A stretch of DNA of 64,000 bases from Sinohyriopsis cumingii (lineage: Eukaryota; Mollusca; Bivalvia; Unionida; Unionidae), in NCBI GenBank assembly GCA_028554795.2, contig JAPYKE020000037.1, positions 2,142,501-2,206,500 on the forward strand. Reading direction: 5' to 3'. The stretch's first letter is position 1. Each line of letters starts with the position of its first letter. Shown here piece after piece: positions 5,345 to 60,650 of the stretch. The position numbers and the translations under genes were made by a program. Below the pieces are notes generated by a model. It was not told the DNA's origin. It saw nothing but the letters and a program-made list of their open reading frames with translations, and made no database searches.

Positions 5345-5600
5345 TGCACAGCAACGTGAGTTTTGCGAGAGGTCGCGGGTTCGAACCCTGGCCAAGTCAT
5401 ACCAAAGACTTACAAAAATGGTACTAACAGCTGTCTCGCTTGGCCCTCAGCATTAATATATTAGTGTTAGGACTGGTCGGCTTGGGGTCAGGATAATGTG
5501 ACTGGGTGGGACATCATGCTACATGTCTACGGCATGATGCCCCAGTGCTGGACATCACTATAAAATATCACACTTCAGACATCGTAGCGATATGACTGAA
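5345..5600 (+). mobile_element. tRNA-derived SINE (family 1), copy a
   Basis: A pol III B-box (GGGTTCGAACCC) sits near 5377. The family body follows ('ACCAAAGACTTA', 'GTTAGGACTGGTCGG', 'GGTCAGGATAATGTGACTGGG', 'GTAGCGATATGACTGAAA'). The same order recurs at 37.2, 52.7, 59.6 and 60.3 kb. It abuts copy 2 of the 740-bp duplication. Confidence 0.85.
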
Positions 5601-6411: not shown

Positions 6412-6483
6412 CACAGAGTGCCACTAAGAAGATCATTCAGTGAGTTACAGAATAAGACGCATCTTCTTCTTCTTCTTCTTCTT

Positions 6484-7755
6484 TTATTTCCTCCACTTCT
6501 TCATCGACCCCCTTATCTTTCCTAATAATCCTTTCTTCTTCTTTATTTCTGACCCTGGTAACCAGTCAGGATGGCCCAACGCTCTGAACTTGGCTTGTAT
6601 CTTCATCCAATTATTATTTAACCTCTCAAACTCTTCCTTTTTCTTTTTGTTTTCCCTATCCTTTCGTTCCTTACTCCATTTCTCTTTGATCTTCATGACT
6701 TCTTCCTCCATCACTTTTCTCATAAGTTCTTCCGCATTCTTTAGCTGGTCCAGACCTCTTTTGACATAGGACCACTCTGTCCATTCCATTACGTCTTCCA
6801 AAAAGCACCTTACTTCTATCACATTATCTATGGCTTCCTTTAAGTGACCAATCTTCACATACTCTGGATTGATGAAGCATCTTAGCCTTTTTACTTCTTC
6901 TTCTATTATCTCTTTCACCAGATCCATAGCTAATTTCATGTTTGTCACTTGCCTTCTGACAAAATCCCGGGTAACTTCATGCTTCCATTCACGTTCACTA
7001 ATGTCGTTTCCCACTTTAGGTAACACTTCCACACGTCGTACGTAGTGTCTGGCTTCCTCGATGACAGTTTTGCAATTGGCAGCAGCAGCAGTATCCATCA
7101 AATGGAAAGCGGTACTAATACGATTCAGTCTCAAGCGGACATTTACGCCGTTCAGCAAATACTTTTCTTGCAACCACATGTCAAAATGCAAACGATCCAT
7201 CAGTTCTAAACTTTTGTTGACTCCTATGAGTTTGTTTGTTCGTTCTACAAATCCCTCATTGTGGTCTTTCTTTGTATCAATTTCCGATTCTTCAAACTGA
7301 CCCGCATCATCAGGTTCCCATACCACACAGGCATTGAGATGGGTGTTCTTGGCGTCTATTCCATACGTCAAGAAATTTTCCAGGTACGCTCGATAAGGGT
7401 AAGTATCCATGCTGCTACTGACTAGTTTGTTATTCAAGTACAAGTCCACTCCAATAAAGAAGGAATGCATGAAATTGTTGACGGAGCTATTACCTCATCA
7501 CCATCTAGACTCGAATTGTCCTCATCTACAACTTTGACTTTCAGGTACAAGTAACTATTGTTCAGATCGATATAATCTTCTGGCTGTCCTTTGATTTCAA
7601 ACTCGATGGGAGCTGAGGCTGTCAAAGAGGAGACAGGATGAAATTCCACCCATTGGGATTCTTGCATGGTAATGATAGTTGGGGGGGGGGGGGGCATGGC
7701 AAACAGATCCAGTTCCGACTTGGAACAGGTGCAAGACTCGATGTATCATTGTTCT
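6484..7755 (-). pseudogene. Major capsid protein, N-terminal half, fused to a coiled-coil tail
   Basis: The N-terminal ~230 residues match the F54H12.2-like double-jelly-roll capsid family. Markers are a Cys-containing leader ending SKSELDLF, then QWVEFHPVSSLT, PEDYIDLNNSYLYLKVKV, MDTYPYRAYLENFLTYG and KYLLNGVNVRLRLNR. Coding probably starts upstream of the ATG at 7667; a stop and a 14-G run (7681-7694) disturb that part. A single-base frameshift near 7480 splits the first jelly roll. After about 7020 the family signal stops, and the open frame continues for ~170 residues as a Lys/Glu-rich coiled-coil-like tail ending at 6484. The second jelly roll is missing. In the intact family this protein builds the hexameric capsomers of the virion. 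Confidence 0.8.
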
Positions 7756-9554: not shown

Positions 9555-10665
9555 TCACTTCTTTTTATAGTCGATGACTTGCGAAGCGTTGATCCAAGAA
9601 TCAAAACTGGGTGGATATCCTTTCCAACGTACTTTGACTTCTTTGACACGTCGTTTGCCTATTTTACGGGTTCTGCGTTCGAGAATGCTTTCAATGTCCT
9701 ACACGTCGTCTTCTTTTTTGGTGACACGTTGTAACTCGGGCAAATAAAACGTTCCTTTTAACACTTCTCCGTTCATGTCTTCCAATTTATAGACGGCAGG
9801 ATGATGGCCATGCACTCGTCCACTGACACGAAACAATTCGGTCGTTCAATTAGGTAAGTAACCTTTGTCGAAAGTGCGTTTGGTTTTGTCAATGCGTACC
9901 CAATCCCCTACGGCCAACACTCCACTTTTCTTGGGGACAGCCCTCGTCGGGGACGTACCAAACAGGCACTCAGACACCAGCACTTCGTTGTCGGGAGTCA
10001 CCTCTTGCGGGGCACGTCAAATGCTTCGATGGTAAGATTGGTTGTACGCTTGCAACATGTGCGGTAAGTTGTCGATGTACTTCAGAGTGTGGTGATGCGT
10101 AAAATATTTCCACATGCGTTTTTTTCAAAGTGCGTTGAAAACGTTAAACGATGAGGGCCTTGGTTTCAGGATTCTCGGTGGTAACAAAATGAATGTCACG
10201 TTTCTTTAATTCTTTTTGGAAAGCTTGGTTCAGAAATTCGGTACCTTTGTCCGTTTGCCATCGAAGACGGTGACGACCACTTTGTTTCAACACCCGTTGC
10301 AGGGCTCGCACTAACTCACTGCTCAATTTGGAAATCAATGGTACGACCCAGGCAAATTTGGAAAAGGCGTCGATGACACAAAACAAATATTTGTAGCCGC
10401 GATTGTAGCTGGCCAAATGAGAGACATCGGCTAAATCGGCTTGCCATTGATGATCGATGCCTTCCACATGGGTTCGACTTCTGGAACATTTGGGTGGAAT
10501 GGGTTTGTGTAAAGTGTAAGTATCTTGTTCTTGTAACCATCGTTGTACTTGAGGTAAACGGAGACTTTTCAGTCGAGTTTTGGCAGCAGGATACAATTTT
10601 TGAACTCCTCCGTAACCTGCAGGATGGGATGGGTCGTAGTAAATGATAGCTAATACTTTTTCCAT
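9555..10665 (-). pseudogene. INT: Retrovirus-type integrase with C-terminal chromodomain
   Basis: From ATG 10665 the frame opens with MEKVLAIIYYDPSHPAGYGG, the usual Polinton-type integrase start. A rve core follows with the first catalytic Asp in WQADLADV and the second in WQTDKGTEF. The third acidic position, about 35 residues later, is a stop codon (TAA, 10146-10144). Further lesions are a frameshift in the 7-T run at 10119-10125, TGA at 10019-10017, TGA at 9848-9846 and TAG at 9701-9699. The C-terminus carries a chromodomain signature (VRWKGYPPSFDSW). In intact relatives it inserts the linear genome into host DNA, and a chromodomain may guide it to modified histones. This copy cannot encode a working enzyme. 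Confidence 0.85.
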
Positions 10666-10672
10666 TTTTCTG

Positions 10673-11371
10673 TTAATAAGTGACCCACTCTTCGCTGATG
10701 CTACTTGGAATGATGCGAAAGGGTGGTTTGGTGCGAATTTACGTGTCCGATGGGCTACGGGAGTAGAAGTCGAAGGTAGTGGTGGAGGTGGCAATGGAAT
10801 GGCTTTGGTCTTCTTTTCTTTTTTCACTTCTGGTTTCCCTGCTTTCTTTTTCACTTCTGTCGAAGGAGGAGTGGATATCATCTTTTTAACCCAAGCTTTC
10901 ATTTCTTCTCTTTGGGATGTGGGGGAAGGGGTCAACAAGGATGCTGCAATCTTACTAGAAAGGGGAGCTGCTGACGGTGTTTGAAAAACTTCGCATCTCT
11001 TCTTCCTCAGGCCTTCGTGGGATAGCGTCTCTGGTGACCCCTGGGGATGGTAGTAGTGGTGGTGGTGGTGGTGGTAGTGTGGGGGATGGACTTTTCATCA
11101 AGGTCTTAAAATCTTTCAGAGTGGGAAGAGCTGTTTCGTCGAAAGCTTTTTGGTGAAAGAGTTGCAGTCGTTGCAAGAGTTGACCGTACCTTTGCGATTT
11201 TTCTGTTTCGGACAAATCTTGGCGATCCATCAAGGACTGCAATTCATCTTGAAACTGGAACATCTCGCTCAAATTGGGATTGGGAGGTAAATGCGGGGTC
11301 CGTTGTTCTTGCCAACGATGGTATTCCATCCATCGTTTGTAAGGCACTAAAGCTAGTTTTCGTCCGTCCAT
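10673..11371 (-). pseudogene. LVP-motif protein upstream of integrase
   Basis: The protein starts MDGRKLALVPYKRWMEYHRW at ATG 11371. It continues with a predicted helical segment (MFQFQDELQSLMDRQDLSE.. then EKSQRYGQLLQRLQLF) and then long Pro-rich and Lys-rich linkers. A frameshift near 10975 moves the reading into the frame that runs on towards the integrase. A second frame change near 10720 would give an end at 10673, just before the integrase ATG. Proteins starting with a basic residue, LVP and an aromatic/basic stretch are common next to capsid and integrase genes in adintovirus-like elements, from general knowledge; their role is unknown. A weak TATA-like GATAAAAAGG lies near 11424. Confidence 0.55.
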
Positions 11372-13114: not shown

Positions 13115-13843
13115 TTAAGTCGAGGACGAAGACGTGTACAGGACAGGCCCTCCGCCTTGGCGCCAGTGGTGAAACAATTGGGTACGAAATCGCAAATCAT
13201 CAGGGGTATTGAGTTTCAAACCGACGAGTAAATAGGCGTGTGGAGCTTGAGTGGCATCGTCGTACGCCTGAGTGAGCCAAGGTGTTCCTAACTGTTTGGC
13301 TAAGACTTGCACTTGCGATTTATCTCGAGGTCTTTTAAACAAGACCACGTAATGAGCATTGAGACTGATGGTGCGATGGGCTTTACTTTGTTGAAACAAA
13401 TTTTGAGTGATGTAAATGACAATGGTATTACGATGATGCCCTTTGCGTGTAAACCAAAGTTTAATTTCTTCTTCGTCTTCTCCTAACATGTCGTCGAAAA
13501 TGACCAAATGGGTTTCACCTGAGTCAGACACGATTCCATCGTCTTCTTTACGAATGCCTTCCACAAACACGATGGAATCGCCATGACTTTCTCGCAAGAG
13601 GCTGTACGCCGATTGCCACTCTTTGTAACACCACACGATGAGTTGAGGTGGACGATCGATCAAATGATGTTTATGTTCGACCAAATGTTTGACAAATTTG
13701 GTTTTGCCCGAACCGCTAGGTCCAGAAATGAGCATGTTAAAGGGATGGCGAAGATACAAAGCCTCCCAGCTGAGACGATCTAAGTGTTCATCGATGACTT
13801 TGACAGTAGAGGAAGAGGGAGCAGAGGCAGCAGAGGTAGCCAT
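13115..13843 (-). CDS. FtsK/HerA-type genome-packaging ATPase, intact
   Basis: An uninterrupted 242-residue frame from ATG 13843. Walker A is GPSGSGKT (residues 41-48), Walker B is THLVIFDDM (near 110-118), and a sensor-like ITQNLF follows near 145, then VVLFKRPRDKSQ. This order and length match the A32-like packaging ATPases of Polintons, adintoviruses and related viruses, which pump DNA into preformed capsids. A TATA box (TATAAAA, 13897-13891) lies about 48 bp before the ATG. Unlike polymerase and integrase, no stop or frameshift is seen. Given its short length, that alone does not prove selection. Confidence 0.85.
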   Translation of the reverse strand: MATSAASAPSSSTVKVIDEHLDRLSWEALYLRHPFNMLISGPSGSGKTKFVKHLVEHKHHLIDRPPQLIVWCYKEWQSAYSLLRESHGDSIVFVEGIRKEDDGIVSDSGETHLVIFDDMLGEDEEEIKLWFTRKGHHRNTIVIYITQNLFQQSKAHRTISLNAHYVVLFKRPRDKSQVQVLAKQLGTPWLTQAYDDATQAPHAYLLVGLKLNTPDDLRFRTQLFHHWRQGGGPVLYTSSSST

Positions 13844-15148: not shown

Positions 15149-15464
15149 GAATAGATCATACTAAATCCAAACTTTTCAGAGGTAATAAGTGAATTTTCTG
15201 TACAAATCAGATTGTACTCCAGTAGCTGAACCAACTGTTGTGGTGTCTCTAGTTCACACACTACACATCGCAGAGAATTTTCCTCTAGAGACAAAATTCG
15301 ATCAGGTAAAAGATTATGGTAATCCACTAACTCTTCCTCATGTACTCGTTGTAGAACAGCTAACATGTAAGCAGTAGGATGAGTAGACACCAAAGTCTTA
15401 CTGTCCTTGTTCAGTTCAACAATATCTTTCCATTGAAACATTTTCAACTCAATCAGTCCTCTTA
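15103..15464 (-). pseudogene. Accessory paralog 2, 3' part downstream of the LINE insertion
   Basis: The region aligns with the later part of paralogs 1 and 3: the block starting FQWKDI corresponds to FHWTDI, and EEELVDYHNLL corresponds to DEELKTYQHLL. It then has a Cys-containing tail and a stop at 15103, 46 bp inside paralog 3. It was separated from its own N-terminal part (17371-17518) by the LINE at 15465-17370. Confidence 0.6.
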
Positions 15465-17313
15465 AGCTTGACACCGCAATTTCAATTGACTTGTCGTCAC
15501 CATACAGCTGGGATAAAGAATTTGAGCGGCAACCATTAGCAGCATTTGAACCTGTCTCTATGGATTTCGTACGTACAATCGTGTCATGTGAACTTGATCC
15601 AATTCCCACATCACTGCTGCTTGAGTGCTTAGATCCAGTATTGCCTTCACTAACTGATGTTATTAATACCTCTCTATCATCTGGGGAATTCCCATCATTT
15701 TTCAAAGCTGCTATTGTAAAGACTCTGCTGACGAAAACAACACTAGACCATAAAGATTTAAAGAACTACCGCCCAGTTTCTAATCTCCCATTCATTTCAA
15801 AAATCTTAGAAAAGGTTGTTCTATCCCAGCTTGTATCTCATCTAAATTGAAACAGTCTTTTTAGCAATGTACAATCTGCATATCGCCCTTGCCACAGTAC
15901 TGAAACTACTCTTCTAAAAGTAGTTAATGACATTCTCTCTGCATTGGATAGCGGAAAGATTACAGTCCTCACCCTCCTTGATTTGTCTGCAGCATTTGAC
16001 ACAATAGACTATGATATATTACTTCACCGTCTCCAGCATGTATTTGGCATTCATAATACAGCCTTACTATGGTTCAAGTCTTACTTGGTCAACAGGACAC
16101 AGATTGTATCTGCAAATGGAATACACTCCAACCCAGTTGATCTATGTTGTGGTGTTCCACAGGGGTCTGTTCTTGGACCTGTTCTCTTCGTTCTGTACAC
16201 TCAGTGGCTCTCAAGTGTCATAGATAATCATCCAGTGTTTCATCAACTATACGCTGATGACACGCAAATATACAAAACTAGCCACCCAACTGAAGTTGAA
16301 GCTACCATCCAAGGTGTAGAGAGGTGCATTTCTCATGTGAAATCAAGGATGACTTGTAACAAGCTGCAGATGAATGATGATAAAACTGAGACCATTCTGA
16401 TCACAAAGAAAATACTTTCTCATTCGCATCCTTTACCTAAAATAATAAATATCAGCAACGCCAACATTAAATTGGCACAATGAGTACGAAACCTAGGTGT
16501 TACTCTGGACAGTACTCTCACATTGCACCAATATGTCATGAACATATGCAAGGCTGCATATCTTGAGCTGAGACGCATCAGCTCAATTCGCAAATATCTT
16601 TCAGTTGATGCCACTAAAACACTTGTGTGTTTATTAGTACTTTCAAGACTGGACTATTGTAACTCAATTCTGTCTGGTTCATCTCAATATCTACTGCAGA
16701 AACTTCAAAAAGTTCAAAACACAGCTGCTCGGATCATACTTAGAGTACCACGATCAGAGCACACCTCCCCGCTGCTCTGTACCCTACACTGGCTATCCAT
16801 TCGATCCAGAATCAAACACAAAATTTGTTCTCTGTGCTACATTTCACTGTCAGATTCTAGTCCAACATACCTATCTGACCTCACTCTTGTGTACACACCA
16901 GCAAGATACTTACGCTCCACTTCTGGCAATCGTATACTCATTATTCCAAGTATGAAAACAAAGTTGTATGGACAGTGTTCTTTAGCATACCAGGGCCAAG
17001 CAACGTGGAATGAATTGCCCACTTAACTTAGACACAAAGACACAGTGATCACATTCAAGAGGGCTCTCAAAACTCACTTATTTCGACAGCAAGAACAAAC
17101 TTACAGACCTAATCATGTTTCTTACCTGAAATATTCTCAGATTATTTTTTTAAATATTTTTGTTTGTTTTTATATATAATGTTTTTCTAATTTCATGTTG
17201 TTTGTTTTTGTAAAAATATTATTATGTTTCTTATCTTATAGGTGTTGTCTATAGTTATAAAGCGCTTAGAGCTTCTAAAGATTAGGCGCTATACAAAGTC
17301 CTCATTATTATTA

Positions 17314-17986: not shown

Positions 17987-18697
17987 TTAAATATATTGTC
18001 CTACTAAAGGTAAATAGTGACAACTGGGAGACCATCGAGCATGTTCCAGGTAAGCTGAATCTTGCGGTTCCCAGTGGTGAAGTGACACACCGCAACTGAA
18101 GCACTTGACTTTATCCCCTTCGCCCAAGTAGAAAGATCCGGCTCTGGCTAATTCTTCGGTGGTTGGTCCTCCCAGATCCTTAGGCCATTTTCCTTTGAAC
18201 GATAGAAAACGATTTTCAAAGTTGCTGTATTCCGACAAACGCACAGGAAACGAATATTCGTCTTTCACAGGATCTCGATGAGGGTAGGGTGACATGAACA
18301 GGAGTTTGCTCAGGGCTTGTTGACATCCGTAGGGTGGTAGAGGTGAAGGTTGACATCCACATTTAAAATGAAACCAAGAGGACGAGTGGCATCGCTTTCG
18401 CATCCATCAGGTTTGACACGCACAGCGTCACTTTCAAACAAAGTTCCCATGATGCTTTACGGCATCACTAAGGTCACAACGTACAGCATCGTTCCCATCG
18501 CAAGACTCACAATCGCACTCGTCTGCTAACTCCGTTACTCAATTACAATGGTTACCGCATGGACACTTGCAGTTTCCTTCCGGACATTTTCCATCGCAAA
18601 GCATGGGTCTTATCCATCCAATATTAGTCACACTAAGGGAAGATAAAACATTTTTACAATCCCCAAACTGGAATGTTGTCTCTTTCAAATGATTCAT
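17987..18697 (-). pseudogene. BIR-domain (IAP-like) gene with Cys-rich leader
   Basis: The C-terminal part holds one BIR domain with the full zinc set: CFSC, then 16 residues, His, 6 residues, Cys (18103-18017), preceded by the AG.FYLGEGD-type core and an FENRFLSFKGKWP start. BIR proteins bind and block caspases or IAP antagonists; here one may have served to delay host cell death. Upstream, from ATG 18697, a different stretch with CDGKCPEGNCKCPCGNHC and further cysteines is broken by several TGA codons; it may be a separate domain or gene. No RING finger follows. A TATA box (18760-18754) lies inside the 3' end of the polymerase gene. Confidence 0.75.
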
Positions 18698-18729: not shown

Positions 18730-21700
18730 CTATCGATCTTGGACATTGTCCCTTTTTATATACAGATCAATACCAACATGTCCATACGGCAAAGTAAAGT
18801 GAATGGGAAGTCGCACTCGCTTCTGGTACACGATTTGATAGACTTTTTCCAAGGGTCGACTGACGATGTGGTGAGTGAGTAAACATATAATCTTGTTTGG
18901 CTGATAGGTGGTCACATTAAAGTGTTCACCTTTTCCTGACTGCAAGGCTTCTTTCAATACGCCAAAGTTCACCACTCGACTGGTACGATAATTCAGAGTC
19001 AATCCTTTCACTTTACACTTCGCGTGCACTTCTCCTTGTTTGTCCCGGTATTCGTAGCCGTAATTTTTAGGACCGCCACTTACGAAACTTAAAATTTTCT
19101 CGTCGGGGTGCTCGTCTGTTCAGACTCCTAAACGGTCTCCTTCGATGTCAGGGTGCTGTAGACTCGGGTGATCGATGTCAATGCAACTGTCCGTGTCAAT
19201 GTACAGGACACATTCCCCTAACAGTTCTAAAGCTTCGTACAGTTTAAAGCGAGCATGAGCTGGCACGTAAGCCGCAATGATGACATTTCCAAATTCGTCG
19301 GCTTCAACAAAGTCCAGATCTTCTTCGTAATTCACTAAGATCAAATCCTCACGAACGAAGTCCACGTGTTCCACGTATTTGGTTTTGTCGTGAATCATTT
19401 GGAAGTACCTGGAATGTTCTGTCAAATATTCCGTCTTGAGTAAACACGGTCGTTGTGCCATTTTACCCCACAAGCAATTTAACATCAACGATCGCCTGCC
19501 TTCGATTTTCTCGATGTGGTCTAGGGTAATGCCTTCTTGTGTCCAGTATTTCTCTTTGAATGTATTTTGGTCTTCGGGTGTGTGACACTAGGAAGGATAG
19601 CCACTGGCTTCTTGTTTCAGTTTCAAAAAGGCATCCACGTAGTCTGTGAAAACGCCTTTCTGACTGGGGTCACCCTTGTGGCATTGTTGTGTCTTGGGAA
19701 TTTCGTACACTTATAACAGTTGGTATCATATGTCCAGAGCTTTGAACAATTCCACGCTGACCCACGTCCCGGTTAAGGCACGTTCTTTCTGGGTGTGCAG
19801 ACAAGGCTGGTGTTGGTTGCACGTTTCGGCACAAGTACGACACAAAGGAAACATCAGTTTGTCTTGACAATGGTGAGGTAACACGGGATGGTACAAGTCT
19901 GTGGGAAGCAAAACTTTGCACTTGATCGAACCTTCATATTGTCGAATGTTTTTCAGGTCAGTGTGTTCCGTTAACAATTGCGGGTGTCCTGCAGGAAAGC
20001 GACAATATTTGTATACGTAGGGATATAGCGAACACACGCCCAAGTATTTGATTTCTTCTCCTTTCTCTTCGTCGGCTTTGTACAGCAAACAGGTGGTATT
20101 GGTCCTTCCTCCGTACAAACTATCCCTCGGATTCAGGGGGCCATGAACTGGTAACTTTCCACGATGCGTTTAAACTCGGGATCGATTTTCAAACGGTGAT
20201 CGTATTCGTGTTCCCACATTTCCACCACTTGGTATCCTTGCTGTTCTAACTTTAGGCGTCTCTGACAAGTGGCCTGGTACAAGTCTTCCATGGTTCGATG
20301 TAAAAACTGATTTTTAGAGCCACTTTCCAGGGTAAGAGACCGGACATCCGTGAAATAAGCAACCGTTAAACTCGTTACACGATGGTCTTTTCGCCCCCTC
20401 CGTTGCGGGCATGTTGAATCCATTCTTCCTTGTGCACAAGTAATGTAACCAGCGCAGGGCTTTGACCGAGTATTGACGTTTGACATAGTTGGTCGTTTGA
20501 GGACTGATGACAGCCACGGTGTTTTCAGGCATGAATTGTTGTCGGTAGACTAAGGTACATGCTTTGGCACTGGTGCAAGCTTCTTTCAAAGCATCGACCC
20601 CTCTGTGTTCCATGAACAGTTCTCGAAATTTTCCACAGCAACGCCGTAAAATGTCCACGTCGGAACGACAACACTTTAACATTTCTTCCTGAAAGTCAAA
20701 AGGGTCTGAGGCATGGGCCTGGTACCAAGCGTAGAAAGCTTCTCGTTGTTCGGTACGCATGTTGTCGGGGTCGTAATAGTAAGCCTCAGGCAAATGGGGT
20801 AGAATGGCATGTTGATTGGCTTCGGTATTGAAAAAGTGAGGAAAATACCCTTTAGATATTTCTGACATTCCAAACATTTTAGGCATTCGACGCAAAGGCA
20901 TGGCCAAGTAACTCATCGAATCTTTAAACTGTACTTGTCCCACTTGCATGAAAATGAGTTTGGCTCCGTTCAAAGTGACTTTAGGACGCTCGGTACCATG
21001 TTCCGTATAGTACCTCAAAAGAAACTGTCCATCGTATCCGGAGAAATTGTGAGCCATCACCGTGGCATGACGATGACAATCTCGGTAACGTTCGATGTCC
21101 TCTTGGCTCCATGTCTTGTCGGTGGGGTCTAAGACCCATAGGGCGAAATCGGCTAGCGTGTTAGGTCCCCGAAAGATTTTTTCACGTCCTCCATGAATCT
21201 TGCTACAGTGAGGGCAATGACTAAAGATAGGTTCTTGAATGCACTTCTCGCACGCTCGATGAGCCACGCAGAAATTAGCAATGTGAATGCCGGTCTCTTG
21301 TATGCATTCGAAATCGAAAAAGATGAAATTGCCTTTCTTCTTCTTGTGATCATTCTCTTTCTCTTGTTGGGGTTGGTATTTTTGCATGTAGCATTGATGT
21401 TTCAAGTCCACAATTCGATGACAAATGTGACATTTTTTCTTTCCTGGACATACGTGTGCCTTTGTATTATTGGTAAGTATGCCTTGTCCACACGTGGGGC
21501 TCAATCTCAAGAGTTTACAAGCATATTTCTGCCGTGAATAGTGTGTCTTGAGATGTTGTTGTTAACAGGCAGGGCTGACAAACGTACGCAGACAAGCAGG
21601 ACAATGTAATCGTTCTTGTCCTTCGTCCAGAGAGGGTTGAGAGGCCAAACATACTTGAGCATTTCGATCCGCAATGTTTGTGTTGCTCTCGATTGTTATA

Positions 21701-22791: not shown

Positions 22792-22822
22792 TTTATATCC
22801 ATAACAGACCAGCGTCTATAAA
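22792..22822. promoter_or_regulatory. Divergent promoter between polymerase and zinc-knuckle genes
   Basis: The 133-bp gap between the two ATGs (22743 minus, 22877 plus) has a minus-strand TATAAA at 22797-22792 and a plus-strand TATAAA at 22817-22822. They lie 49 and 55 bp from their starts. Confidence 0.6.
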
Positions 22823-22876
22823 GGGTGTGTGTCTTGCACTTCCAATATTCATTTCACTCTCAAACCGAGCAGAAAA

Positions 22877-23209
22877 ATGGACGAGACTACACAAATCGAA
22901 CTTTTCATCAAAGCTTTGCGAGGGGTCATCAGACAATTTTCTTCAGACCAGCTGATGGACTACTCACCCTCCTTTCGCGATAAAAGTCAAGATACTTGCT
23001 ATATCTGTGAGAAAAAAGGGCATTGGTTTTCAGAGTGTCCAGACCGTCAAAAAAACAAAACAGGGGTTAAAAGAGACAAAAGTCAAGATACCTATTAGCA
23101 TTGTCAAGAAAAAGGACATTGGTCTCCAGATTGCCCTAAGAAACAACAGGAGCAAGAAGAAGAGGGGAGTTATGGAGAGCAAGAAGAAAGCAGACAGGTG
23201 AAAAACTGA
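22877..23209 (+). pseudogene. CCHC zinc-knuckle protein, second knuckle broken
   Basis: From ATG 22877, a short helical N-terminus (MDETTQIELFIKALRGVIRQ) is followed by one perfect CCHC knuckle (CYICEKKGHWFSEC). After a duplicated 'DKSQDT' spacer a second copy follows, in which the first Cys codon reads TAT and the next codon is TAG (23096-23098). Reading on in frame gives HCQEKGHWSPDC and a Glu/Lys-rich end at 23209. CCHC knuckles bind single-stranded nucleic acid. This is the only clear plus-strand gene in the main viral block. A poly(A) signal lies at 23383-23388. Confidence 0.65.
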
Positions 23210-23382: not shown

Positions 23383-23388
23383 AATAAA
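23383..23388 (+). terminator. Poly(A) signal of the zinc-knuckle gene
   Basis: AATAAA, about 170 bp after the last codon. The two neighbouring units instead carry histone-type 3' signals. Confidence 0.45.
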
Positions 23389-23527: not shown

Positions 23528-23566
23528 ATCTCTTTTCGAAATACTTGTGTGGCCCTGAAAAGGGCC
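23528..23566 (-). terminator. Histone-type 3' stem-loop and downstream element, unit 1
   Basis: On the minus strand a perfect 6-bp stem with a 4-nt TTTC loop (GGCCCTTTTCAGGGCC, 23566-23551) is preceded by CAAA and followed by ACACA. After 12 nt comes a purine-rich 11-mer CGAAAAGAGAT (23538-23528). This is the layout of replication-dependent histone mRNA ends: SLBP stem-loop, cleavage after ACCCA-like bases, and a downstream element pairing with U7 snRNA. It lies 32 bp past the stop of the Q/E-rich gene. Confidence 0.8.
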
Positions 23567-23597
23567 TTTGGGTCTTGGTGGGTTTTAAACAACAAAC

Positions 23598-24143
23598 TTA
23601 GGAAGCAATCAACTTTAACTGTCTTAAGCCTTTGCCATGGCCAAGGCCTACTTCTGGACTGCGTACTGTCGATGATGATGATTTGGTAGACATTATTAAG
23701 GGTCGTATGGTAGGTGTTGTCACAGGGTTGGATTGTTTAGGTCGGGAAGGTCTTTTTCTCTTCGGTCGTAATAAAGAAGTCTGATACATTTGTTTCAGAC
23801 TTCTTAACTCCGCTAAAATATATAACAGTACCGTAACGGTTTGACTTTCACCCTCTTGTTTCTTGGCTGCTTCTTCTTCTTGTTTTTTTCTTACCTCTTC
23901 TTGTTGTTGTTGTAGGAGAAAAGCTTGTTCCGCTTCCTTTTGCTGTTGTATAAATTTCTCCAATTCTTCTTTCTGTCTCTGTTTAAAATTCTCCACGTGT
24001 GGTAAAGAAGGAGAAGGTGACGAAGGTACTGGTTCAGGAACAAATTCTTGCGAAAGAAAATCCACAAAATCCCAATTCACCTCTTCTGGAAGTAAGTCCG
24101 GGTTCACTTAGGTAGTCTCCACGGTCGGTGCACTCCAATTCAT
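23598..24143 (-). pseudogene. Q/E-rich coiled-coil protein, first gene of the minus strand
   Basis: The open part from 24107 encodes 169 residues: an acidic start (LPEEVNWDFVDFLSQEF), a Ser/Pro linker, a ~50-residue Gln/Glu/Lys coiled coil, and a basic tail (RPKRKRPSRPKQ). The natural ATG is probably at 24143 (MNWSAPTVETT), cut off by an in-frame TAA near 24110. A TATA box lies at 24222-24217. The gene ends in a histone-type 3' signal rather than a poly(A) signal. No family is recognised; coiled coil plus basic tail suggests oligomerisation and nucleic-acid contact. Confidence 0.55.
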
Positions 24144-24216
24144 TTTCTTCTAAGTTTCCGTCATGTTTATGATCACTGTGTCGCATGGATTGACTGCGCA
24201 CACACGCTAGTGTCTC

Positions 24217-24222
24217 TTTATA
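24217..24222 (-). promoter_or_regulatory. TATA box of the Q/E-rich gene
   Basis: TATAAA on the minus strand within CCCTATAAAGAG, 74 bp before the likely ATG at 24143 and 53 bp before another in-frame ATG at 24164. Confidence 0.5.
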
Positions 24223-24334
24223 GGGAATGTGACGTCACGGGCTGCTATTTTTAGATTGGACGAATGGTGATTGAATTTTGTAACGCGTGTTTGGATTGGT
24301 CAATCAACTCAATCGTTTCGATCCTCCCTCTCTC

Positions 24335-24342
24335 TATAAATA
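24335..24342 (+). promoter_or_regulatory. TATA box of the plus-strand end unit
   Basis: TATAAATA, 43 bp before ATG 24385 and about 110 bp from the oppositely oriented TATA box of the Q/E-rich gene, so the two units share one divergent promoter region. Confidence 0.55.
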
Positions 24343-24384
24343 CTCGCTATTTGCTGCATATCTTCACCTGTTCTCGTCACCAAG

Positions 24385-24600
24385 ATGTGGACCGACGTGG
24401 AATCCTCTACTCTTGTGTCTTTAATGATGTTTAGAACGGACATACCCATGTATGTCCGATCTACGTGTACTATTGTCAAGATAACGGATACCTGTATGTG
24501 GTAAAGAAGAATCTACGTAGAAAGACAAGGTTGTTTAAAGAGAGTGATGATCTATGGTCCCGAAGTAAGACAGAGTTTAAGGACAAGAAGGAGACCTAAG
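24385..24600 (+). pseudogene. Small plus-strand gene ending in a histone-type signal
   Basis: The ATG at 24385 gives only 38 residues. One frame over, a coding-like stretch (GILYSCVFNDV, TAG, then THVCPIYVYYCQDNGYLYVV and a basic Lys/Arg end with DDLWSRSKTEF) runs to a stop at 24600. This suggests a former ~70-residue Cys/Tyr-rich then basic protein with one frameshift near the start and one nonsense codon. It sits between a TATA box and a histone-type stem-loop, which supports a real transcription unit. No family recognised. Confidence 0.35.
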
Positions 24601-24647
24601 CGGTGCCCTCTATGTTAACAGTATGGTATGTTAACATAAAACACAAA

Positions 24648-24686
24648 GGCCCTCTTCAGGGCCACTCCAATGCCTCGAAAAGAGAT
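24648..24686 (+). terminator. Histone-type 3' stem-loop and downstream element, unit 2
   Basis: On the plus strand a perfect 6-bp stem with a CTTC loop (GGCCCTCTTCAGGGCC, 24648-24663) is preceded by ACAAA and followed by ACTCCA. After 12 nt comes CGAAAAGAGAT (24676-24686), identical in sequence and spacing to the downstream element of unit 1 on the other strand. The same stem with a different loop base argues that the signal is maintained rather than a chance hairpin. Confidence 0.8.
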
Positions 24687-24786
24687 TTCCTTTCATGCCT
24701 ACATTTCTTTTCTTTTTAAAATGTCTGTTGTCTATTATCTGTGTTCTATAAATCTCCCTTGTTCCATAACACTATACAGACCCACC

Positions 24787-24995
24787 ATGTTAAGTTTCCC
24801 TTGTCGCTATATAGTTCCAAAATCTAGATCCCATGTTAAATTCCCACTGTCCCTATATAGGCTCAAAATATATTGCCATGTTAAATTCCATTGTTCCTAT
24901 AAAGCATCCAAAATTTTCCCATGTTAAATTCCCATAGTCCCTATAAGGCAAACCCCCTATTTTAACATTAAAGTCCCTTTGTCCCTATATTGCCC
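24787..24995. repeat. Five ~45-bp tandem repeats with a CTATATAG core
   Basis: Units start near 24787, 24833, 24878, 24921 and 24965. Each contains ATGTTAAATTCCC, a GTCCCTATATAG block and an A/T-rich 'CCAAAAT' stretch. They lie just past the last viral gene and before clear host sequence, so they may belong to the element's terminal region. The palindromic CTATATAG could act as repeated promoter or replication-binding sites; this is inference. Confidence 0.7.
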
Positions 24996-24999
24996 CACT

Positions 25000-27950
25000 T
25001 CACTACTCACGCGTGCCTTTTCCGGATACCACGCGCGCTCACCCCTTTCATGGGGTCTGGAAACTTTAATGTAGAACAATAACTTTTCAACGTGAGTATA
25101 GTGTCCAGTTATCAGTGACGACATGCTTTCAGATCGATCAATATTAGTGTAATCTCTTTGTTATGTCATTGTGGCGGGGCCTTGTCTTATGTATAGGGAT
25201 GTGTTAAATTCTGTTTTCCGCTTGCCATTCAATTCTGATGCAGAAAATAAACTTAAAAATCAAATATATTATTCTGGCGTGCTGATTATTATCTCAAAAC
25301 TGAATCGTAAAAACCTTGTCTTTATGCAAGAGTCAGCCAAATTTATAATATTCAAGGCAAATACAACTCAAATAATTGTTTGGTGGAAGTGCTTGCAATT
25401 GTGAGAGACGTACAATTATTATTCAAAGACTTTGTATGCTTACCGTAACGTGGTACTACGTACGGATATGTAAATAATAAGTGATGGACTAGTAATTCAA
25501 AACGACGCAGTTTTCACATTGACTTAAAATAAGGAGGCTGCGTGCATTTGTTTTTCCCACCAGCTATAAGCATGCGTTCTTTCATTGCCTAGTTAAATTT
25601 TCTAGATGGGAAGATCAGTTACTGCTGATCAAAAATTTTTAAGTTCGATTAAATCTCGATGAAATTAATATTTTTCTTAATGACTGAGGAAACGTCAAAG
25701 CTTGAGCTGGCTGTACACGAAACTAAAAGTCATTAACATGATTGAAGGTCAAGTCGATGTCAGTTATAAGTACGACGGCACACATATTTATTTGAATTGT
25801 GTCTTGGTTTGAGACAATCTCTGTGGTTTCAAGTCTCTAGTTTAGTTCGCCAGGGGTTCATCTGGGGTCGTAAATTCAAATTGAAACTGACTAAACGAAC
25901 TGCACCGTTTTCTCCGCTCGCACTAGTAGCCTTTTTGGTGCACATCAATTGGCTGAGTCAATATCAGTGTTGGGCGAATCCGAGCGCATGTATACAGAAT
26001 GTACAAAAGTGGTTCCACACTTGAGGACCAAAAACAACTACTCAGTTGACATACACAAGCTGCAATTATATCTGTGGCTGGGAATGTGTGTCATGGATCC
26101 GTAGGGTACTTAGGTTTCGTCTGAGCCCATGAATCGTTTCCGATCTGTGCACAATGGCCACGAACGTGCTTCAAAAGGACGTTTTCAAACATATGAGCTA
26201 TGATGTATTGAGCAATACTATAGAGAAACTCGTTAAACGGATTCGTGCCGATCTTTTCGTTGATTATGTACAAAACCAACTTCTAAGCTGCATTTTGGAC
26301 CCAGCATTCGAATTCCAAAAGATCTTTGATGGCGGACTCACCTCTGCCCATAGCAAAAGTCGAACATGAAACTGACAAAACCTTAATACGTTGTCATGTC
26401 TGTATTGGACTCATATAAACCGTTCTTGAATGAGTTTAATTGTGATAAGATCAAACCGCGGTACGACAACGTCCAACAGTAATCTATCCGCTAGCATGAG
26501 TGAAGCATACCTGGTAAACGAATTTGATAAAAACGAATATACGAAAGATTATACACTGTTCAGTTACGAATAAAAAAAGAAAGTCTGTCCCCACTTGACA
26601 CCGAGCGTGCGTGCGTAGATTATAAAAAAATAAAATTTAGTGTGCCCGAAGGAATAACTTGCAAATCATCTCGTACAAATGCTCTTTAGTCCTGCTAAAT
26701 GGTAACGTGATTTTTGCTTCTGAGTAACAATCTGTCCGAGATTGAAAATATATCGACGGACCATACCTTGTTAGTAAGCCTCCAGATACCGAACACAGTT
26801 GTTTCTGAGTGGGTCTAACGGCGGTAGTTATGAAATCATTTTGTGAGTGACGTTTGTTTGATAAATAGCCTTAGCGGGTTTCAGTTCAATTGCTTTGACT
26901 TGCTTAATACTTGTATGAATGAAGGAAGTCTAATTATCCACTCTTGAGATCGTGTCTGCGGCCTCAACAATAATTGCGCGAAAAATCGTTGCAAGTGTAA
27001 CTTTAACTTATTAAACGATAGCCTGGTTATATTAACACAGTTCTGAACCTATTGTTTTAATAATAATGCAGCAAGGCTCGGAGGTATGCTTTACTCGAAT
27101 CCGTTTGCATGACCCGTGACTATGTTAGTGGAAAATATTAAAAAATATCAAACTGTAGAGAGCACTCAAAAATCGATTACAAAAATCCAAGAAGACATCG
27201 GATAAATTGCATAGGAAGTTGGCCAGATCCAACAGGATATTGGGGAAATTGTAAAGGAAGTTGGTAAGATCCAAGAAGAATCGCAGATACTTGACGCAGA
27301 CATCAAAGTGGCACTTATTAATCTTCCACGGCTACCATCACCTGTGTATGAGTCATTGATACAAATACCGAAACAAAAATTTAATGAATTTGGTCGCCAG
27401 TGGATTTTTTAATGTCCCATATATACTGGTCTTATTGTTACAGCAAATGGGAAGATGGTTTGACAAAAAGGCATCACAGAATATATATGTAGTATGAACC
27501 AAGTGGGTGTCCTGAAAAATTACTGAGTTTAAGCAGACTACTGGTAAGCTTTTTGACACTCGTAATATAATTTTTGATACTACTCAAGCCGGAAAAATGA
27601 CTAAAGCAAGAACACGCTCATGGCGTCGATACAGAGTATATTAGCTGCAAGACGAGGTCATGTGGAGCGTGCACCTCCATGTGATTGAATTATCCCAAGC
27701 AAAATGAAGCAAAAACCAGGGAGAAGTCACTGCCCAACCCGAACACTGAACCATAATCATCACTTTATGATTTTGCAGCAATTTCCAATAGTAGTATGAA
27801 CAGCGGTTTAGCAAGTTACTAATATAGGTTAATGCCTTCTCCACACTCCCATGACTTTCTTCTGGAGGGGGCGCCTATTGGTAACATTCGCGGCTGCGCG
27901 TTATGTGAAGGCAAAGTCATGGGTGTTAAAGGCTTTACCCTCGATTAGTA
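25000..27950. other. Host non-coding stretch
   Basis: Only short chance frames are seen, none with recognisable motifs. Around 27190-27280 two similar 'GT(A)AGATCCAA' phrases suggest a degraded short duplication. No RNA gene or clear repeat family is visible. Confidence 0.5.
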
Positions 27951-55396: not shown

Positions 55397-58300
55397 ATTA
55401 ATAATAATAATAAACTATCTTTAACGAGGATAACACATCTGGTCATGGCTGACCCATCTGCCATGTGGTCCTAAGTTTTTGTAATAAAATAATAAAAATA
55501 GAAGTTCATGCATATAACCATGTATCGTCGCACACTCATTCGTACATATTTTACATGAATGACTATGTGTGACTATACTGGGAAACATACAAATATATAT
55601 CAATTATGGATATAATTTTAAAGTTTTCTATTCAGAGCTTTTAATATATCATTCCAGCTGGTCTAGAAAGAATTTCTTTAATGATAATTTAAAAGAAGCA
55701 AGGGATGTTGAATTACGTATCCTCACTGGTAAGGAATTCCATAAAGTAGGTGCTGATACGGAAAATGAGCTTTTGTAATGATTGGTTTTCGACCAAGGAA
55801 TCTGGAGATCGTTGTTTATCGTCGATCGGAGATTACGCTCAGTATTCGATGATCTTAGTTCAATTATGTTAGAGATATAATCTGGAGAAAGACCGTTTAA
55901 AGACTTGTATGTCATGATTCCTTTAAAATAAAGAATACGTTTTTGTATAGGTAGCCATTTCAGACGTGAAAACAAAACATTTGACGGAGTCATAACAGGA
56001 AGTTTCAGTATTATTCGGGCTGCCCTTTTCTGGAGTTTATCAATTCTGGACAGATCATAATTTGATGTATTTCCCCATATGGTACAGCCGTAATCTATCA
56101 GTGGTAGTATATAACCGAAAAATAAATTTCAAGTGATTGTGGAGGTAGAAATTTTGAAAGCAATTTTAACAGAGTTATTCTTTTGACTACCATTGCACAT
56201 AAGTGATCGATATGCGCATTCCAGCTGAGGTGTTGATCAATGTAGATACCAAGAAGTTTTTGATTTTTGACAATAGATACGTCTAAGCCATTTTGAGTTA
56301 GAAGTAAATCCATGTTAGTAGATAGACGCTGGCTTGTTCCAATTGTCATACATTTCGTTTTAGAGATGTTAATATGCATTTTGTTTTGATGACACCAAAC
56401 TGATATATTGTTGAGGTCGGTTTGAAGTTTATTTTTAATGGAGTCTAGAGATTTATCAGATAAATGCAATGTCGAATCGTCAGCGAAAAGATCTGTGTTA
56501 GCGTGCGCTGGATACAAGGCTAAGTCATTGATAAATAATAGAAAAGAAGAGGCCCTAATATAGATCCTTGAGGAACACCACTTAAGATATGACTTGGTTC
56601 GGATATATGTTTACCCGTGCAAACAACCTGGTGTCTGTTTGTGAGATACGACGTGAACCAGGCAACTGAGTTGGGAGAAAACTTGTAGGCTGAAAGTTTT
56701 TTAATGAGCACCGAATGGTCAACCAAATCGAATGCATTTTTAAAATCAATGAAGTTTACACCAGTAAGTTCACCTGATTCTACTGCTAGTAGCCATTGGT
56801 CTGTAAGTTTTGTCATTGCAGTCTGACATGAATGATTCTTTCGAAAACCTGATTGTGATCTATGGAGGAGTTGGTACTTGTCAAGATATATGAAAATATG
56901 CTTGCTGACATGTTTTTCCATAATTTTTGAAAGTACGGATAGAACAGATATGGGTCGATAGTTGGATGAGTCATTCTTTTCATTTCCCTTATAAATTGCG
57001 AATACCTTTGCTAACTTCATTGACTCCGGGAATTTATTGGAAGTGATACTACAGTTAATTATTTTTTTCAACGACTCTGAGATTGATAAAGCCGACATTT
57101 TCAGAGTTTTGGGGTGAATTCCATCTAGACCAGCTGATTTGTTTGTGCCAAGTTTATTTATAATATCAAAAGTGTCATTTATTGTTATTAAGGGAATGTT
57201 GAAACTAACATGATCGGGTACCCTTTCATTCACGAATTTAGTAAGTTTGTCTAAATTAGGCTCTGTATTATTAGACCTGTCAAGCGTTTGGGAGATATTA
57301 GTAAAAAAAATGGTTCAGCTGGTTTGTAATATCGAGCTCTTCAGTATATTTAGTGCTAACGACTATAATTTCACATGGAGCTAGAGACGCAGGTTTCGTT
57401 GAAGTTAGATTTCGTAAATGATTCCAGATGGATCTGTTATCGGACTTTGATGTGATGGCTTCTTTGAAAAGGAGCGTTTGTGTTTTACAATGATTGATTT
57501 GACTTTGTTTCGCCATAAACGATAGTTTGTGAAGTCTTTATGTTTATGGTAGTAGTTTCGTTTGCGTTGTGCCTCTGCGATTTCATTAGTATACCATTCT
57601 GGTTGTTTTGATCGTTTAATTCTCTTGATGAGTATGGGGACGTGTTTATTTAGGATAGTAAGAAAACAGTGATTCCAGTTCGACAAGTCATAATCTGGGT
57701 CTCTGTTAGGGAAATATATTGCGTTAATGTTTTGTGATAGTTCAGAGAGAAATTCATTTTCAGAAAAGTTTTTGAAACATCTGTACTGCATGTAGGAGTG
57801 TAAGTTGTTTTTCTTTGCGCTCTGTTGCTTACGAGTTGCACATTCATGATAGTGATCACTAATAGGGAAACATGGTACGTTTATCTCGTAGAGACTGGTT
57901 GGATGGGTAGTATAGATGTGGTCGATCAGAGTAGAAGTACAGGCTGTTACTCTTGTTGGAGCATATTGTTACACGCACACGGGTATTTACTTGACCGATC
58001 GGTTGTCAAACCCTGGCGCGATTCTCGCTAGAAGTCCTAAGTTTCCCCGACTTTCCAAAGACTTCCATACAACCTCAGTTGTAAATCAGAAAGCCCGACG
58101 TGTCCATTCTATACCTAAATTTTCCTCTAATTAATGCAAGACCACAGATAAACCAAACTGTCAACTATCTATCAACCGTACATCTGCGTGTTTTGGCTTC
58201 ATTTTGTTTCCGTACCACCAACCGTTCACGCCTTAGAACATATATGAGTACTCCCTAACAATGGGAACTATTTTAACTCCGCCACCTTAGGACAGTCAAT

Positions 58301-60337: not shown

Positions 60338-60650
60338 AGACCGCTCCGGTGGCTTTGTAGTTAGAGCGTCCGCCTCGGATGCGGGAGGTCGCGGGTTCAA
60401 ACCCCGGCCGAGTCATAGCAAAGACTTATAAAGATGGTACTAACAGCTGCTTTGCTAGATGCTCAGCATTAAGAGGTTATTGTTAGGACCGGTCGGCCTC
60501 ATGTCAAGATAATGTGACGGGGTGGGACATCATGCTACATGTCTGCGGTATGATGCCTCAGTGCTAGACATCACTATAAATTGTCACACTGCAGCGATCG
60601 TAGCGATAAGACTGAAAAAGCGTTAAAGCTACGTTAGGAATCCAAATCAC
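60338..60650 (+). mobile_element. tRNA-derived SINE (family 1), copy d, best-preserved head
   Basis: The head keeps an A-box-like GGTGGCTTTGTAGTTAGAGC, an anticodon-arm-like region (CGCCTCGGATGCG) and the B-box GGGTTCAAACCCCGG, then the complete body. It is the clearest guide to the tRNA origin of the family. Confidence 0.85.

Follow-up and report, generated by a model that had tools for sequence, protein, structure and literature searches.

Histone-mRNA-type 3′-end signals on non-histone genes of a Polinton lineage

The window analysed here, that is, the whole 64-kb stretch of DNA, holds a decayed Polinton. Near one of its termini, two divergently transcribed non-histone genes finish in the signals described below. 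Taken together with its other copies in the host genome, it is very probable that this Polinton lineage uses histone-mRNA-type 3′-ends on at least three of its own non-histone genes, namely the divergent pair and the last gene of the other element end. To judge by the sequence, the cis parts of the histone 3′ system are present in these viral genes in a host-like form. As a rule, the histone 3′-end is regarded as confined to the replication-dependent histone genes; what is new here is not the RNA signal itself but the class of genes that carries it.

Results

The minus-strand gene is followed by the histone-type stem-loop GGCCCTTTTCAGGGCC (23566–23551, −), which has a 6-bp stem and a TTTC loop, and 12 nt past it a scan of the sequence located the downstream element CGAAAAGAGAT (23538–23528, −). 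The plus-strand gene has the histone-type stem-loop GGCCCTCTTCAGGGCC with a CTTC loop (24648–24663, +) and, again 12 nt past it, a second CGAAAAGAGAT (24676–24686, +) found by the same scan. With the Rfam model Histone3 (RF00032), whose gathering score of 34 bits served as the cut-off, the minus stem-loop scored 38.7 bits (E = 8.5e-8 over 64 kb) and thus exceeded the cut-off, while the plus stem-loop remained below it with 32.1 bits (E = 8e-7 over 2.2 kb and 1.1e-5 over 30 kb). The histone-type 16-mer pattern matched the window four times, these matches being the two signal sites on both strands, and the same pattern had a mean of 0.27 and a maximum of 2 matches in 60 first-order Markov sequences. 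The 11-mer CGAAAAGAGAT had no further occurrence in the 64 kb. Sequence inspection and the scan confirmed the two stem-loops, the 12-nt spacing and the identical 11-mer on opposite strands that a preliminary description of this DNA had pointed out.

Between the two signals lie the two divergent genes that they terminate and not, as had been stated there, a zinc-knuckle gene; the zinc-knuckle ORF (22805–23098, +; zf-CCHC, E = 0.00035, 21 bits against a cut-off of 20.8) sits left of both signals and converges on the minus unit. The non-histone minus gene occupies 23598–24143 (−), its open frame is 24107–23598 and its stop codon is 31 nt from the stem-loop. Its ATG at 24143 is in frame, and one in-frame stop separates the ATG from the open frame in the window copy. 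The median dN/dS of 0.30 (19 open copies gave 171 pairs, of which the 67 with dS > 0.25 were used) indicates that this gene is under purifying selection. An AlphaFold model of P0121, a relative of the minus protein, consists of one long and one short helix and has low overall confidence (pLDDT 67.7, pTM 0.26). The short plus-strand gene (24385–24599, +) has a broken frame with pieces at 24385–24504 and 24435–24599, both matching other genomic copies, and its stop lies 48 nt from the stem-loop; a homologue search with the C piece found none. The divergent promoter region (24200–24384) contains the CRE TGACGTCA at 24230–24237, CCAAT boxes (ATTGG), the TATAAATA motif at 24335–24342, assigned to the plus gene, and a possible TATA for the minus gene at 24222–24216, the window's form of which occurs in only 2 of 48 copies. 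Over the same 48 copies the CRE was found in 40, ATTGG in 48 and TATAAATA in 47, and a search of the 48 divergent promoters for an E2F site gave 0. The minus protein, both pieces of the plus gene and two proteins of the left-end gene all lacked a histone match in Pfam, and the signal-bearing genes are therefore not captured histone genes.

The element is recognised as a Polinton by its retrovirus-type integrase (10144–10902, −; rve, E = 4.9e-12) together with a DNA polymerase B fragment (20314–21561, −; DNA_pol_B_2, E = 1.3e-14 on 20314–21387), the pair of genes used as one criterion for such elements. An A32-like packaging ATPase (13115–13843, −; Pox_A32, E = 8.2e-7, above its cut-off) had 324 homologues at E ≤ 0.001. 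The capsid-type ORFs of the window were identified by their likeness to ORFs of a distant Polinton stretch (L015, 20.5 kb), and a Pfam search gave no capsid match for them. A terminal repeat array (24700–25007) starts just past the plus signal and ends with …TTCACTACT at 25007, the right terminus, whereas the left element end is lost from the window. Related repeat arrays follow both terminal genes in other copies, ending with …ACTACT where they were read, and terminal repeats are present in 29 of the 30 loci fetched by their stem-loop. The arrays (24700–25007 in the window; past the stem-loop in L019, L032 and L034) are built of degenerate short repeats, approximately CATGTTAAATTCCC…TTGTCCCTA, ending ACTACT. 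Some further sequences were noted in the window. A BIR (inhibitor of apoptosis) domain at 17987–18406 (−; E = 5.3e-21) lies among the Polinton genes, and this ORF is possibly a captured IAP-like gene. Two ORFs, at 15437–17026 (+) and 56520–57098 (−), resemble LINE-type reverse transcriptases by their translations, and the first of these is nested inside the Polinton. A tRNA-like SINE family of about 240 nt has copies at 5364, 37265, 52749, 59559 and 60380, and Rfam labels the SINE copy at 60343–60415 a tRNA.

A third gene, located at the opposite element end, likewise has the stem-loop, the 12-nt spacer and the element in L019, L023, L030, L032 and L034, where the signal lies 24–37 nt past the last matched residue. 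All five of these loci were selected by the signal itself; one further left-type end, in L031, lay outside this selection. The signal is thus carried by three different genes (minus, plus and left-end), and at both element ends it adjoins the inner edge of the terminal repeat array. In the window, a remnant of the left-end gene is found at 6484–6996 (−), corresponding to residues 159 on of the ORF 6484–7470, and its signal has been lost: comparison of the window with four left-end loci showed that the similarity stops at 6467–6495.

The host assembly (2.9 Gb, 1138 contigs) contains many copies of the element, and the minus protein was matched by all 150 candidates scored among 27,114 first-look candidates. 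A protein-selected set of 30 copies, including the window, was chosen by the minus protein and anchored on the coding sequence. Their minus ends carried a recognisable stem-loop in 30/30 cases (13 perfect, 10 at 15/16, 6 at 14/16 and 1 at 12/16), the spacing to the element was 12 nt in all 30, and the element was exactly CGAAAAGAGAT in 21, the window among them. At the plus ends the stem-loop reached 13/16 or better in 27 of the 30, of which 26 had the 12-nt spacing; at that threshold it was missing in L049, L062 and L069. The paired motif, which the preliminary description had proposed to seek in related elements, therefore recurs in copies that were chosen by their protein. The CTTC loop of the window plus end is a change of this copy, as the loop begins with T in every one of the 26 copies, out of the 29 other protein-selected ones, that could be aligned there (the three copies named above were dropped).

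Since the protein-selected copies are close relatives, diverged loci fetched by a Histone3 match (L016–L045) were also used. The Histone3 scan of the host genome scored the best 75 of 589,472 first-look candidates, all 75 lay above the cut-off, and 30 loci were examined. Every one of the 30 proved to be a Polinton end; a viral protein identified 23 of them and the terminal repeat the remaining 7. The second signals of these loci, which lay outside the selection, were present in all cases where the gene end was in the locus (13/13 minus and 4/4 plus ends).

Sequence comparison between the subfamilies (13 diverged × 29 protein-selected minus ends, with the window and three selected ends dropped) gave mean differences of 0.078 for the stem-loop, 0.056 for the element and 0.190 for the spacer, against 0.548 for the 5′ flank (20 nt) and 0.485 for the 3′ flank (40 nt), the flank values being inflated by indels because the comparison was ungapped. 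Among close copies the contrast was weak at the minus end (stem-loop 0.056, element 0.031, 3′ flank 0.062) and clear at the plus end (0.043, 0.091 and 0.224, respectively, with three copies dropped). The signal thus appears to evolve far more slowly than its flanks between subfamilies.

The histone genes of the host form a tandem array with a unit of about 8.3 kb, spread over many small contigs (L076–L105, L109), and H3, H4 and H2B were named from their translations. The ends of all three consist of the stem GGCCCT/AGGGCC, 12 nt and AGAAAAGA, so that stem and spacing match those of the viral ends in the comparison with the host's own histone genes that had been suggested earlier. H3 (30 copies) and H4 (29 copies) have GGCCCTTTTTAGGGCC, 12 nt and AGAAAAGAGCT or AGAAAAGATAA, with a TTTT loop, while H2B (one copy) has the TTTC loop and the viral form GGCCCTTTTCAGGGCC, followed by 12 nt and AGAAAAGATGT (Histone3, 38.2 bits). 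Among 69 viral ends whose stem-loop is perfect, the best agreement over the following 34 nt was 27 positions with H2B, 24 with H3 and 19 with H4, and simple letter shuffles were as good in 0/300, 0/300 and 10/300 cases, respectively. Outside the element core, the best viral match was 20 of 26 for H2B (0/300 shuffles), 17 for H3 (0/300) and 12 for H4 (105/300). The window minus end agreed with H2B, H3 and H4 at 24, 24 and 19 of the 34 positions and the plus end at 19, 22 and 17; H2B and H3 have 25 of 34 in common, and each has 19 in common with H4. The viral ends hence resemble the host histone ends about as these resemble each other, which fits either the capture of a 3′ cassette or adaptation to the same U7. 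Because the 3′ cassette is so close to the host histone ends, its capture from a host histone gene seems likely. Many viral ends (L016–L075) and host H2B also have a second block in common past the element, approximately TTTCAAT, which perhaps represents extended U7 pairing.

For the host U7 snRNA itself, the Rfam search of the host assembly gave three matches below the cut-off (best 29.3 bits vs. 34) that were not U7-like, and a pattern search, with the pairing to the element built into the pattern, gave 2 matches, neither convincing, vs. 3 in the reversed control. Pairing with the Rfam U7 consensus was −7.1 to −8.0 for the viral elements (equalled by 55–118 of 500 shuffles), −11.6 for host H3 (3/500) and −4.7 for host H4 (193/500); it was significant for host H3 but neither for the viral elements nor for host H4, and thus speaks neither for nor against U7 pairing at the viral ends. 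Poly(A) hexamers (AATAAA or ATTAAA) were found within 150 nt past the stem-loop in 11/23 minus and 3/24 plus ends, whereas the 40 nt preceding the stem-loop contained one in 4/23 and 0/24, respectively; the downstream hexamers make a poly(A) back-up possible. The convergent zinc-knuckle gene indeed has the ordinary AATAAA previously ascribed to it (23383–23388), which makes a mixed 3′-end strategy within the element plausible, as had been proposed.

The minus protein has 20 homologous proteins in public sequence data, which may come from this or related hosts. One of these relatives, P0129, lacks the usual stop and reads on through the 3′-end. Its residues fit the 39 bases of stem-loop, 12-nt spacer and element: of the 27 fixed bases, only the sixth base of the stem is a mismatch, and the next-best fit among 82,949 placements in 140 proteins had 6 mismatches. 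In IMG/VR, the stem-loop pattern found 14 stretches, none of them a Histone3 match at the Rfam cut-off, and a longer pattern found 0; the protein queries there had 4 (ATPase), 41 (minus-protein alignment), 39 (ATPase alignment) and 2 (polymerase) pattern matches, none of which was a relative. In genome_contigs, the minus-protein alignment retrieved no relative and the ATPase alignment one, L015, in a Bathymodiolus symbiont MAG. Neither L015 nor the assembly containing it had a Histone3 match, and the only genes recognised in L015 are of late type. This stretch encodes a Polinton ATPase, integrase and capsid-type genes within a bacterial MAG and probably represents DNA of a host or a virus that was assembled along with the bacterium.

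Discussion

The viral genes most likely use SLBP/U7 3′ processing. The histone-type processing of viral genes put forward in the preliminary description is strongly supported at the sequence level by the recurrence of the signal, its conservation, its orientation in the sense of the genes, P0129 and the match to the host ends. We infer from these data that cleavage occurs at the viral ends, that the messages lack poly(A) and are linked to S phase, and that the cassette originated in a host histone gene. The broader scenario, in which an animal Polinton lineage took up a host histone 3′ cassette and thereby expresses the terminal pair and the last gene as non-polyadenylated, SLBP-dependent and S-phase-timed messages, has in our estimate an even chance of being correct.

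According to the review PMC7614891, the stem-loop is recognised by SLBP, a protein whose level increases ahead of S phase and which promotes the processing, export, translation and stability of the message, while U7 snRNA base-pairs with the downstream element and the endonuclease is CPSF73. In the viral case, transcription would begin at the promoters with CCAAT, TATA and CRE motifs, SLBP would bind the stem-loop in the viral pre-mRNA, and the GAAAAGAG element, which follows the stem-loop after 12 nt, would be recognised by the U7 snRNP through pairing. The histone cleavage complex would then cut between the stem-loop and the GAAAAGAG element, and the product would be a message with a short 3′ UTR and a stem-loop end in place of poly(A). 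Since SLBP is raised before S phase, the viral genes should be expressed best in replicating cells. The data suggest that the element borrowed the host's machinery for messages linked to DNA replication.

Several other explanations of the signals have to be weighed against this processing. It is conceivable that they only assist mainly polyadenylated messages, the stem-loop contributing to stability, export or translation or acting as a back-up. This has a small but appreciable probability: some histone genes are known to form both types of 3′-end, and hexamers occur within 150 nt downstream in 11 of the 23 minus ends; they occur, however, in only 3 of the 24 plus ends, and the U7-type element, which is needed for cleavage, is conserved between subfamilies as much as the stem-loop. 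That the signal adjoins the terminal repeat array on its inner side, at both element ends, could also mean that the hairpin belongs to the terminal repeats as a DNA element involved in replication, packaging or transposition, and is not an RNA signal. That is quite improbable, as the minus-gene signal is internal, approximately 1.4 kb from the terminus, and all signals stand in the sense of the upstream gene, 7–49 nt past its stop or last matched residue; moreover, they are strand-asymmetric, with T's in the loop and the downstream element on the 3′ side only, which is the layout of the host histone mRNAs.

The capture of whole histone genes that later decayed to their 3′-ends, leaving signals without a viral role, must be considered because the divergent pair with CCAAT and TATA motifs and 31–48 nt from stop to stem-loop has the layout of histone gene pairs, and the 3′ cassette is similar to the host H2B and H3 ends. 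The genes nevertheless lack histone matches, the signal sits on three different genes, and the minus protein has a dN/dS of 0.30 and 20 public homologues, so we regard such a capture as very unlikely. Captured host histone genes, named in the preliminary description as a possible source of the signals, can accordingly be set aside as regards the genes, while capture of the 3′ cassette nonetheless remains likely. As for chance hairpins or an oddity of the assembly, their probability is negligible, since many contigs carry protein-selected copies with the signal and a protein found in other public data encodes it as well.

If these genes are indeed processed in the histone manner, this would be a novel means by which a DNA virus can couple its genes to S phase and dispense with poly(A), and the RNA 3′-end would be the point at which a virus-like element links its expression to the replication of host DNA. 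In that case, the viral ends would also provide SLBP and U7 with a natural set of substrates other than histone messages.

The element of the window has the integrase, DNA polymerase B, A32-like ATPase, capsid-type genes (judged by their likeness to L015) and terminal repeats in common with Polinton/Maverick and adintovirus-type elements. It differs from them in its 3′-ends: searches of the open PubMed Central literature, covering titles and the opening parts of abstracts, brought up no description of such ends for viruses or Polintons, and the distant L015 has no such signal in its 20.5 kb. The viral ends are like the 3′-ends of metazoan replication-dependent histone mRNAs in their stem, pyrimidine 4-nt loop, purine-rich element at 12 nt and short 3′ UTR; unlike in the replication-dependent histone genes, these signals end non-histone genes and reside in dispersed Polinton copies outside the histone array.
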